From contig NZ_AQQU01000003.1 in the NCBI RefSeq assembly GCF_002210105.1, positions 186,001 through 250,000 of the forward strand: a stretch of 64,000 nucleotides of DNA, written 5' to 3'. Positions 290 to 58,066 of this stretch are shown one piece after another. The notes under the pieces were generated by a model. The model made no database searches. It saw only the letters and a list, made by a program, of their open reading frames with translations, and had not been told where the DNA came from. A program made the position numbers and the translations under genes. The DNA is from Oceanicola sp. 22II-s10i (GTDB taxonomy: Bacteria; Pseudomonadota; Alphaproteobacteria; Rhodobacterales; Rhodobacteraceae). Every line of letters starts with the position of its first letter. The first letter of the stretch is position 1.

Positions 290-350
290 CGAGGGGGCTT
301 TGCCCCCTCGCGCTCCCCCAAAGTATTTGTGACCAGAAGAAGCAGGGGGG
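290..350 (-). repeat. repeated 3' element, copy A (downstream of the NifU-like gene)
   Basis: Read on the minus strand, this begins 18 bases after the stop of the Fe-S scaffold-like gene. It has a C run (345-350 on plus), the invariant core TGCTTCTTCTGGT, then CACAAATACTTT and a G run (315-319 on plus). A perfect 9-bp hairpin with a 3-base loop follows at 290-310 (CGAGGGGGC arm). Copies with the same layout lie at 22870-22948, 43434-43507 and 58006-58066. The function is unknown. The position suggests a 3'-UTR or termination role. Confidence 0.8.
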
Positions 351-368
351 CTGTGCGCCTGATGGGGG

Positions 369-824
369 TCAGGCGCAGTTGCTGCGGGCGGCGATGTCGT
401 CCAGTGCTTCGACCGTCGCGTCGAGGGCCAGGAGGATCGAGGCGTGACGGTTGCGATAGTCGCGGGCGGGGCGCAGCACTTCGAGGTCGGCAAAGGGGGC
501 GGGCGGCGTGGGGCCGTCTTCCTTGAGCATCCTGGCCAGCGCGTCGCGGGCGGCGCGAATCTCGTCCGGGGTGGCGCCGACGACATGGGCTCCGACGATG
601 CTGGCCGAGGCCTGACCGAGGGCGCAGGCGCGGACCTCCTGCCCGTAATCGGCGACCCGGCCGTCTTCCAGCTTCACGTCGACCGTTACGGTGGAGCCGC
701 AGAGCGGTGCGCGTTTCTTGACCGTGGCGTCGGCATCGCTGAGCCGGTCCTGCCGCGGAATGTCCGCCGCGAGCGCGAGGATGCGCGAGGAATACAGCTT
801 GATCAGGTCGCTTTCACCGGACAT
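369..824 (-). CDS. NifU/IscU-like iron-sulfur cluster assembly scaffold protein
   Basis: A 151-residue cytoplasmic protein of the IscU/NifU N-terminal scaffold type. The first cluster-ligand site is visible as APLCGS (Cys42) and the second as RACALGQASAS (Cys67). The third site, normally HCS in IscU, reads RHASILLALDAT (His127-Ala128), so the usual third ligand cysteine is replaced by alanine; a different cysteine sits near the C terminus (Cys150). It may therefore be a diverged scaffold or carrier. The ATG at 824 is chosen because GAAAGGAA lies just upstream; longer readings start without a ribosome site. It is divergent from hisI, and its 3' end carries repeat copy A. Confidence 0.8.
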   Translation of the reverse strand: MSGESDLIKLYSSRILALAADIPRQDRLSDADATVKKRAPLCGSTVTVDVKLEDGRVADYGQEVRACALGQASASIVGAHVVGATPDEIRAARDALARMLKEDGPTPPAPFADLEVLRPARDYRNRHASILLALDATVEALDDIAARSNCA

Positions 825-3762: not shown

Positions 3763-5073
3763 TCAGCGTTCGACCGGGAGGCCCGACGGCACGGTTTCCG
3801 GCACCCCGAGCCGCCCGTCGAGCGAGGCGGGATCGGTCAGCGCGCCGAGAAAGGCGATCAGGTCGGCGATCTGCGCGTCGGTCAGGCTGACCGGCGCGAT
3901 CTCGATGGATTCGGCGATGCGCATAAGTTCGTCGAAATCGTCCATCGCGCGCCAGTCGTCCGCCGTGCCGGGGGCAGAGGCCAGCCGCACCTGCGCGCGG
4001 TCATAGGCCGACAGGGACGCCATCGGGTCGAGGTGATGGCGCACGATGCCCTCCAGCGTGGCATAGGCGCCGTTGTGGCCGTAGGGGGCGGTCTCGGCCA
4101 CGTTGCGCAGGGACGGGGTGCGAAACCGGTAGCGATCCGTTTCCTCGCCCGAGACATAGGCGCGGCCGATGTCGGAATACCCGTCGGTGTCCTTGCCGGG
4201 CCCGAACTGCGGCAGGCCGAGCGCGTGAAAGCCGTGATCGGTCTGGAACGGGCCGGAATGGCAGCTGCTGCATGCGGCGTCGCCATAGAACAGGTCCATC
4301 CCGCGGCGCTGCGCCGGATCCAGCGCGTCCTTGTCCCCGGCAAGATAGGCGTCGAATGGACTGTCCGTGGCGCGGAACTCGTGGGTTTCGAACTCGGCCA
4401 GTGCGCGGGCGATGTCGCTGATATGCATGGCGCGTCCGTCGAGGAACGGGGCGAACCGCGCTGCATAGACGGGGTTGGCGGCGACACGGGCCGTGATCAT
4501 CGCCCAGGCCCCGTCGGGGCCGCCGATCCGCCCCTCGGCCACGGCATCGGCGATCGCGTTTTCGCCCGGTTGGCCGGCCATTTCATCCGGCGACTGCACC
4601 GGCATCAACGCCTGCGCCGCGAGCACGGTCGGCATCGGCCGTTCCAGGTCCCGTCCGGCGGGCATGCGTATGCCGAAGGGCGCGGCGGCGTCGCGCGCGG
4701 CCCGTCCGTCGTGAAACAGCACCGTGAACTCGTAGGCGCCGAGGTTGAACAGCGCCGAGGCATTCCGCGGCACCCGCGCCTGCGGCCTGTTCCGCACGGT
4801 CACACGCCGGTCAGGGCCGAGCGCGGTGCCGCCTTCGCCGATCGACAGCGACATGGCATCGCCGGTGGCAAGGCTGGGATGGTGGCAGGTGGCGCAGGAG
4901 ATGTTGAGATTGCCCGACAGCAGCGGATCGAAGAACAGGTCACGGCCCAGCAGGGCCAGTTCCAGGTCTGTCGGGGGGAAGTCCGAGTGGGTCACCGCAT
5001 TCGGTAGCTGTTCGGCCTGAGAGAGAGTGGCCTGGAGGGTAAGAATGCCGGCGGTGACCCACGCTCGTGTCAT
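3763..5073 (-). CDS. di-haem cytochrome c peroxidase/MauG-family protein
   Basis: Exported protein of 436 residues with an N-terminal signal peptide (about residues 1-20). It has two covalent haem sites: CATCH at 60-64, and CSSCH at 268-272. The sequence RFRTPSLRNV followed by PYGHNGA is typical of bacterial di-haem peroxidases and MauG relatives. These act in the periplasm, either reducing peroxide or oxidising a partner protein. No methylamine-dehydrogenase gene is near, so a MauG role proper is not implied. It stands alone, with an unusually AT-rich 190-bp upstream region holding two inverted repeats. Confidence 0.88.
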   Translation of the reverse strand: MTRAWVTAGILTLQATLSQAEQLPNAVTHSDFPPTDLELALLGRDLFFDPLLSGNLNISCATCHHPSLATGDAMSLSIGEGGTALGPDRRVTVRNRPQARVPRNASALFNLGAYEFTVLFHDGRAARDAAAPFGIRMPAGRDLERPMPTVLAAQALMPVQSPDEMAGQPGENAIADAVAEGRIGGPDGAWAMITARVAANPVYAARFAPFLDGRAMHISDIARALAEFETHEFRATDSPFDAYLAGDKDALDPAQRRGMDLFYGDAACSSCHSGPFQTDHGFHALGLPQFGPGKDTDGYSDIGRAYVSGEETDRYRFRTPSLRNVAETAPYGHNGAYATLEGIVRHHLDPMASLSAYDRAQVRLASAPGTADDWRAMDDFDELMRIAESIEIAPVSLTDAQIADLIAFLGALTDPASLDGRLGVPETVPSGLPVER

Positions 5074-22869: not shown

Positions 22870-22948
22870 AGAGGGGGCTGTCTGCCCCCTCTTGCGGGCT
22901 GTGCCCGCAATTCACCCCCGAAAGTATTTGAGACCAGAAGAAGCAGGG
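22870..22948 (-). repeat. repeated 3' element, copy B (downstream of the GNAT gene)
   Basis: Read on the minus strand from the GNAT stop codon, 43 bases pass. The element then starts with CCCC, TGCTTCTTCTGGT, CTCAAATACTTTC and GGGGG (22948 down to 22915). A perfect 7-bp hairpin (22893-22909, TGCGGGC arm) and a perfect 9-bp hairpin (22870-22892, AGAGGGGGC arm) follow. It fills the spacer before selO. Same order and orientation as the other three copies. Confidence 0.8.
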
Positions 22949-22991
22949 GACCGGCGAGGGACGCCGTCGGGCGGGGCGAACGGGTGCCGGG

Positions 22992-23435
22992 TCAGAGGCG
23001 GAGGGTCATGACGACCGAATCGTCGTGATTGGCGAAACGGGCGCGGCGGAAGAAGATCTCGGTGGGGGTGGCGGGCGGCGCGGCGGCGCTGAGGGCGCAG
23101 AGCCCGGCCTGGGCCAGCGCCTTGGGCAGGGCGTAGAGCACCTCGGTCCCGATGCCGCGGCGGCGGACGCCGGGGCGGATCCAGATGTCCTGCACCTGTC
23201 CGGCCAGCCCGCCATAGGCCAGCGACCAGCCGAAGGAGATCACGGTGTAGCCGATCGGCGCGCGGACGGGCCCGATCATGTAGGCGACCCCGTGCGGTGA
23301 GCCGTCGAGCAGCGGCGCCAGCGCCGCCGCGCGGTCGGCGTCGGACTGCCGGATGCCCAGTTCGTCGTGGCAGGCGGCGACCATGGCCAGCAGGCGGTCG
23401 GCGTCCTCGGGGCGGGCGAGATGGATGTTGGTCAC
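22992..23435 (-). CDS. GNAT-family N-acetyltransferase
   Basis: A 147-residue single GNAT domain. The acetyl-CoA pyrophosphate loop is [20 protein letters not shown], with the RRRGIG motif A. The acceptor is unknown. The start is a GTG at 23435 that overlaps the stop of the nucleoside hydrolase gene by four bases (GTGA); upstream in-frame ATG codons would lie inside that gene. The C terminus (SVVMTLRL) completes the fold. Downstream lies repeat copy B. Confidence 0.87.
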
Positions 23436-43433: not shown

Positions 43434-43507
43434 CCCCCTGCTTCTTCTGGTCAAAAATACCTCGGGGGAGGCGCGGCCCAACGGGCCGTGACGGGGGCAG
43501 AGCCCCC
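43434..43507 (+). repeat. repeated 3' element, copy C (downstream of holC)
   Basis: Starts 33 bases after the holC stop: CCCCC, TGCTTCTTCTGGT, CAAAAATACCTC, GGGGG (43434-43468). Two perfect hairpins follow: CGGCCC/GGGCCG with an AAC loop (43474-43488) and GGGGGC/GCCCCC with an AGA loop (43493-43507). The preceding bases CTCGCAGG are shared with copy D. It fills the convergent spacer before the di-haem cytochrome gene. Confidence 0.8.
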
Positions 43508-58005: not shown

Positions 58006-58066
58006 CCCCCTGCTTCTTCTGGTTTCAAATACTTTCGGGGGGTCCGGGGGGCAGACAGCCCCCCGG
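58006..58066 (+). repeat. repeated 3' element, copy D (downstream of ntrX)
   Basis: Starts 35 bases after the ntrX stop: CCCCC, TGCTTCTTCTGGT, TTCAAATACTTTC, GGGGGG (58006-58042), then a perfect 9-bp hairpin with the CCGGGGGGC arm and AGACA loop (58044-58066). The preceding CTCGCAGG matches copy C. Placed between convergent ntrX and the CNNM gene. Orientation and order agree with the other copies. Confidence 0.8.

Follow-up and report, generated by a model that had tools for sequence, protein, structure and literature searches.

A short interspersed hairpin repeat with genome-specific core dialects behind genes of Rhodobacteraceae, probably of the REP/BIME kind

Results

Four copies in the window

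Four places in the 64-kb window (the whole stretch of DNA analysed) carry one short structured repeat (Table 1), and the genes that flank them are ordinary: a NifU_N-domain gene at copy A, GNAT and SelO genes at copy B, HolC and cytochrome c genes at copy C, and genes for an NtrX-like sigma-54 response regulator and a CNNM/CBS protein at copy D. An earlier note on this DNA had identified the preceding genes correctly, ‘NtrX’ being a reading of the domains, and had set the limits of the four modules right to within one base. Its claim of an exact common core was borne out: TGCTTCTTCTGGT has exactly four mismatch-free occurrences in the window, at 332-344 (-), 22933-22945 (-), 43439-43451 (+) and 58011-58023 (+), and CTTCWTCTNNNNNNAAATAY, searched with up to two mismatches, has only four matches there, all perfect, where 0.10 are expected and none of 100 shuffles held four. 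The bipartite core CTTCWTCT-N6-AAATAY, again with up to two mismatches, finds the same four sites and nothing more. Exactly four window copies thus read CTTCTTCTGGT-YNN-AAATAC followed by GC hairpins, and the order within the unit is C-run, TG, CTTCTTCTGGT, YNN, AAATAC, a short pyrimidine link, G-run and GC hairpin, with an accessory hairpin between G-run and GC hairpin in copies B and C. A covariance model built from 14 copies scores copies A to D at 53.7 to 67.7 bits, all four being in its training set.

All four copies point the same way as the preceding gene, 18, 42, 33 and 35 nt behind its stop codon in A to D respectively, as had been claimed for the window. The C-run and G-run had also been said to pair across the core; minimum-energy folds pair them in copies A (z -2.36) and D (z -2.08), but in B (z -3.37) and C (z -1.07) other pairings replace them. 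No named family was found for the repeat, in agreement with the earlier note: Rfam covariance models gave no hit at gathering threshold in the window and none at E<=1 in 12 element loci, and our literature searches returned nothing on this repeat and no name for it.

Table 1. Coordinates of the four repeat copies in the window, their parts and their gene context.
Feature	Position	Strand	Description
Copy A	290-350	-	C-run; core CTTCTTCTGGT-CAC-AAATAC 323-342; G-run 315-319; GC hairpin 290-310
Copy A, context	369-824	-	NifU_N gene; copy 18 nt past its stop
Copy B	22871-22949	-	C-run; core with YNN = CTC 22924-22943; G-run 22915-22919
Copy B, hairpins			accessory about 22892-22910; GC hairpin 22871-22891
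Copy B, context	22992-23435	-	GNAT gene; copy 42 nt past its stop; SelO gene (-) next
Copy C	43434-43507	+	C-run; core with YNN = CAA 43441-43460; G-run 43464-43468
Copy C, hairpins			accessory about 43472-43490; GC hairpin 43493-43507
Copy C, context			convergent gap: holC (stop 43400) / cytochrome c gene (43539, -)
Copy D	58006-58066	+	C-run 58006-58010; core with YNN = TTC 58013-58032; G-run 58037-58042; GC hairpin 58044-58066
Copy D, dialect half	58013-58023	+	CTTCTTCTGGT; genome-specific, spelling varies between genomes
Copy D, YNN	58024-58026	+	fast-changing positions
Copy D, AAATAC	58027-58032	+	near-invariant across the repeat family
Copy D, context			convergent gap: NtrX-like gene (stop 57970) / CNNM/CBS gene (58121, -)

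Size and range of the family

The window's own genome (G000, 5.11 Mb) holds at least 113 covariance-model matches at E<=1 and at least 84 at E<=3e-4, with 150 of the 2333 first-look candidates scored; the 84 and the next two make up our working set of 86 own copies. The strict pattern occurs 12 times in this genome, against 0 for its mirror (reversed) version. Counts of the looser core CTTCWTCT-N6-AAATAY reach their maximum here, at 111, with 105 in the sample's one congener, and one match or more was found in 192 of the 292 genomes of the order. Across 385 genomes sampled from the whole class, none outside the family exceeds three, which is background, as the mirror control reaches up to four; as far as seen, the repeat appears to be confined to Rhodobacteraceae. 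Carriers among the matches listed include Paracoccus, Sagittula and Ruegeria plasmids and several marine Rhodobacteraceae. Within the window's GTDB genus, pattern counts run from 0 (G672, G675, G686 and G688, where missed dialects may account for the zeros) to 209 (G678); the pattern used for this comparison undercounts, finding only 25 in the window's own genome because the link to the G-run differs there.

Own copies are mostly single. Near-identical units also occur in this genome, one pair matching at 80 of the 80 positions compared. Separately, in a subfamily made up of C1:809195, C1:1040743, C12:318258, C23:149122 and similar own copies, homology extends far past the hairpin, through CAAGTAAAGG..GCGCCGCAGGCGC, to give units of about 120 nt.

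Core dialects and the YNN positions

Among the copies listed per genome, the left half of the core varies by genome and AAATAY is nearly constant. The left half reads TTTCCCTGT in most listed copies of G673, TCTTTCGCT and TCATCTTTC in those of G674 and mostly TCTTCTTG in those of G677, each before AAATA, and TCATCTGGC in three of the four of G676; on a plasmid of P. pantotrophus it is TCTTTCTTG in 10 of the 14 listed copies, also before AAATA. Both dialect and pattern count shift inside one genus. A second dialect, CTTCATCTTGC..AAATAT, was seen in the window's own genome at C1:404694, 534279 and 845804 (three of the ten own places listed).

Across 77 own copies the core positions are near-invariant save YNN, for which TCC (32) and CAA (13) are spellings found among 79 copies. 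Among 40 close own pairs, the shares that differ at the three YNN positions are 47, 60 and 42%, while the other positions average 5.5%, and in 11 disjoint own pairs YNN accounts for 15 differences in 33 comparisons against 52 in 847 elsewhere; close pairs were picked for their likeness outside YNN, which favours this contrast. A fairer, leave-one-position-out test puts the first two YNN positions at linkage equilibrium (0.97 and 0.98) and the third at 0.68; position 20 (0.80), one position in the flank (0.76) and one in a hairpin loop (0.64) are high as well, and most of the rest stay under 0.3. Judged from these ratios, YNN is either unconstrained or unusually changeable. A copying of YNN from the flank, as a target duplication, was considered and rejected: the best of about 1200 offsets reached z 2.98, and no flank match was prominent.

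Anatomy of the hairpins

The accessory stems vary in sequence and keep their pairing: 29 of 37 in own copies are distinct, with a mean of 7.6 bp (4.0 when shuffled), and in other genomes 33 of 45, with 5.5 bp (3.2 when shuffled). The C-run/G-run parse succeeded in 73 of 77 own copies and 100 of 164 others, and the analysis of stems and G-run lengths covered 67 and 77, respectively. C-run and first G-run are equal in length in 85% of own and 79% of other parsed copies, against 51% and 40% when permuted. The leading C-run, which the earlier note had made part of the module, counts at least four bases in 64 of the 73 parsed own copies but in only 20 of the 100 parsed elsewhere. Sixty of the 164 other-genome copies lack the G-run and have a different continuation, often CTCCGCCGGAG (by eye). 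A stem of at least 5 bp ends just before TTC[TA]TCT in 22 of 77 own copies (8.3% in shuffles) and 27 of 164 others (8.6%); directly beside GTATTT, stems are less frequent than in shuffles. None of the 86 own copies has a T-tract right behind the GC hairpin, and on the opposite strand 3 of 86 have one. A small hairpin of the form GGU-loop-ACC, examined by eye, is not kept across dialects and was rejected as part of the unit.

Inverted pairs of units also occur. Head-to-head core pairs, about 15-20 nt apart, which would form one long hairpin, were noted in L276 (at about 3960-4020), in L277, L282, L295, L296 and L302 (near 1500) and in L161 and L175.

Placement and orientation

Genes were called with our own codon-based finder, trained on codon position. 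The 86 own copies lie in 36 convergent and 4 divergent gaps and, in tandem gaps, 21 with and 17 against the genes; five more overlap a called gene and three are at a contig or window end. In other genomes 115 copies from 109 loci were placed (125 matches in 124 loci, less one cut by an end, one duplicate and eight near an end): 49 convergent, 19 tandem with, 36 tandem against, 6 divergent and 5 inside a called gene. This placement and the C-run parse use exact core patterns, so that diverged copies are missed, and both omit 20 loci (19 from other classes or phyla and, by mistake, the Cognatishimia locus L155, which is of Rhodobacterales); the placement further omits L130 and L233 (50% G+C or less).

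Among own gaps of at least 85 nt, those with an element are convergent, tandem and divergent in the ratio 34/35/4, against 12/48/47 for those without, so that divergent gaps make up 4 of 73 with and 47 of 107 without (Fisher p 3e-9); most of the gaps compared come from loci chosen around elements, and the filled fraction is not a genome estimate. Tandem copies in other genomes lean towards ‘against’ (two-sided binomial p 0.03), and pooling gives 40 copies that point with the genes and 53 that point against them (p 0.21). The preference for gene 3' ends is real, and orientation is free. The rule that the element always follows a stop codon and points the same way as that gene thus fails in the rest of the window's own genome and in other genomes; what stands of that rule is the preference for gene 3' ends.

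In Ruegeria sp. AD91A a copy lies antisense between two genes that the public annotation gives as xanthine dehydrogenase genes, and an orthologous antisense copy is common to three Ruegeria plasmids, its core unchanged save at the N positions. At an orthologous copy (L307 650-820 against L275 3950-4085) the THAF33 version is extended, between G-run and final C-run, by a long stretch that can form a hairpin, and AD91A and SCSIO 43209 have the short form.

Turnover at orthologous sites

The site of copy D is occupied in the window's own genome, occupied in the same direction by another dialect in G682, occupied in reverse by G685's own dialect in G685 and empty in G690; in 17 other genomes fetched the neighbouring gene is a different one, and no core was seen by eye in the 190 nt behind the gene. 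The site of copy C, between holC and the cytochrome c gene, is empty in G682 and G690. Where holC has another neighbour, inverted pairs follow it in G673 (117 bp), G691 (121 bp) and G678 (129 bp), and in G688, which has no pattern match, a classic T-tract terminator does. These empty and re-occupied sites were seen between congeners of about 75-82% identity. The congener G207 shares with own copies 6 of 29 distinct sites (from 30 loci of the 35 matches listed), against about 0.6 by chance on a rough estimate. Because of the empty and re-occupied sites on one side and the shared sites on the other, copies appear to come and go while some last. No target-site duplication or insertion in progress was seen.

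Discussion

The observations are best explained if the repeat belongs to the short interspersed palindromic elements of the REP/BIME kind and bears a tag that differs from both described REP tags, with a reader that would drift between lineages; we give this explanation a probability of about 0.6. Short palindromic repeats dispersed behind genes, with divergent gaps avoided, as found here, are what marks REP/BIME elements, and the earlier description of a structured module that recurs behind unrelated genes and is ‘mobile or selected’ is supported. The unit would consist of a pyrimidine-rich dialect of 8-11 nt, YNN and AAATA[C/T], in most copies with one or two GC hairpins after it, for a total length of about 60-95 nt, with one dialect common to most copies of a genome and two in some genomes. 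Subfamilies, copy number and the empty or re-occupied sites suggest that copies spread inside a genome and turn over, and they would be tolerated where they do least harm, namely behind genes, in either orientation and outside promoter gaps. The dialect and AAATAY together most likely form the site that a trans-acting factor recognises, with a specificity that would shift from lineage to lineage, and in this genome that factor would be other than the known REP transposase family. Once placed, the GC hairpins may act both ways, in 3'-end protection or as weak terminators. A study of R. sphaeroides (PMC7866481) reports that a MEME analysis of the sequence upstream of PNPase-dependent 3' ends yielded no motif.

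The best-known REPs have a GTAG tag and a RAYT (TnpA_REP) gene, form inverted pairs and lie between unidirectional or convergent genes, as described in parts of PMC3733652 and PMC3116915. By those descriptions the present repeat resembles GTAG REPs and BIMEs in its unpaired tag beside a hairpin, its dispersal, its inverted pairs, its tandem and convergent gaps and its species-specific families; it differs in a tag of about 20 nt that is partly genome-specific, and in the lack of Y1_Tnp here. GTAG is found within 30 nt upstream in one of the 77 own copies and two of the 164 from other genomes, and anywhere in the 90 nt downstream in 1 of 77 and 17 of 164. The Y1_Tnp domain (PF01797) has no match in the window's own genome or in G207 and is present in 30 of the 292 genomes of the order, 14 of which hold at least ten core matches; a RAYT-driven REP was accordingly rejected for this genome, though such a transposase may be involved in others. 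Since both definers, the tag and the RAYT gene, are absent, we do not file the repeat as a GTAG REP.

CGTC REPs, in the parts of PMC3733652 that treat them, are alphaproteobacterial, have no dedicated transposase known, carry hairpins and form inverted dimers, all of which brings them close to the present repeat. The tag here, however, is AAATAY with its dialect, the stems are GC-run stems whereas those of CGTC REPs have A-T pairs at the first positions (PMC3733652, in the same parts), and the CCA tail described there was not seen here by eye. The sequence CGTC is present in the 30 nt upstream of 17 of the 77 own copies and somewhere downstream of 34, and no fixed place for it was seen (by eye). 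Eight Rhodobacterales names have no occurrence in the main text of PMC3733652. The inverted pairs around a spacer behind holC, and the sequence families by genome, recall REPINs as parts of PMC3116915 present them, but own copies are mostly single and come with no RAYT. Intrinsic (Rho-independent) terminators share the GC hairpins behind genes and differ in the T-tract, which is lacking here.

A narrower form of the REP/BIME reading is that this is a third tagged kind of REP, private to Rhodobacteraceae, in which a factor other than a RAYT reads the dialect plus AAATAY and either copies units or rewrites existing copies, such that dialects shift in concert and only YNN is left free. We hold this form tentatively, at clearly less than even odds. 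The genes between close copies look ordinary (by eye, from their sequences), and no mobilising enzyme was seen among them. Old copies that are kept, such as those at the sites shared with G207 and the Ruegeria copy with its unchanged core, imply that some selection or conversion must act, as a purely selfish repeat would be expected to decay at such places. A phage origin was rejected: seven phage records gave short partial matches only, at the level of chance, and the bare core turned up in 19 viral contigs, in every case without the G-run hairpin (by eye).

Selection could instead maintain the element for the host as a two-way transcript end, its hairpins terminating or protecting transcripts from both sides between convergent genes, which we regard as unlikely. 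In that design the forward direction would use a short hairpin, GCAGG..CCTGC, followed by TTCTTCT, and the backward direction the GC hairpins followed by GTATTT. The enrichment of convergent and avoidance of divergent gaps, the matched lengths of G-run and C-run and the stem before TTC[TA]TCT in own copies are consistent with it, as is the T-tract terminator behind holC in G688, where G673, G678 and G691 have inverted pairs; a consensus scan also rated copy C as terminator-like whichever way it is read and copy D one way only, among 12 sites in 18 kb where 7.5 are expected. However, the hairpins of own copies are not followed by T-tracts on either strand save in the three copies mentioned, the forward stem is a minority feature, also in other genomes, and stems beside GTATTT occur less often than in shuffles. 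At one shared site the two species each carry another hairpin, with a short T run, next to the element (by eye), in Ruegeria a copy separates two genes that belong to a single row, and the dialects are left unexplained.

The bipartite core of about 20 bp, with free spacer positions and an orientation independent of genes, could also be where a chromosome-organising or replication protein binds, with gene 3' gaps as merely free space. The best two-arm strand runs comprise 35 of 43 copies on contig C1 of G283 (0 of 300 shuffles), 29 of 36 on C1 of G192 (p 0.003) and 22 of 29 in G026 (p 0.08), so that two of three genomes beat shuffles, with contig sizes rounded. The polarity relative to dnaA is nevertheless opposite in G283 and G192, on which ground we rejected replication polarity; in the window's own genome the large contigs carry copies on both strands (by eye), and this reading, which we hold improbable, would explain neither the hairpins nor a spread of counts from 0 to 209 within a genus.

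No better placed is the strand-specific 3'-UTR RNA module of the earlier note, an sRNA or a target of Hfq, ProQ or Rho. All four window copies do follow a stop codon in the direction of the gene, but the genome-wide orientation count that the note itself had proposed as a check came out at 40 with and 53 against in tandem gaps, antisense orthologues are kept in Ruegeria, and orientation is thus free, which argues against such a module. A DNA-uptake mark can be dismissed almost entirely: the uptake sequences (DUS) of Neisseria likewise come in dialects by species and stand as inverted pairs at the ends of genes, but uptake sequences number in the thousands per genome, whereas the present repeat has tens to about two hundred copies, with hairpins attached.

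If the REP/BIME reading is true, genomes of a large and well-studied family of bacteria each hold up to a hundred copies or more of a repeat for which our searches gave no name, and the repeat would offer a new test case for the spread of repeats without a known transposase. Dialects that change within a genus would then be a natural experiment for finding the reader, by comparison of copy-rich with apparently copy-free congeners. It would also call for caution in the transcriptomics of Rhodobacteraceae, in which conserved hairpins behind genes can be copies of a repeat.
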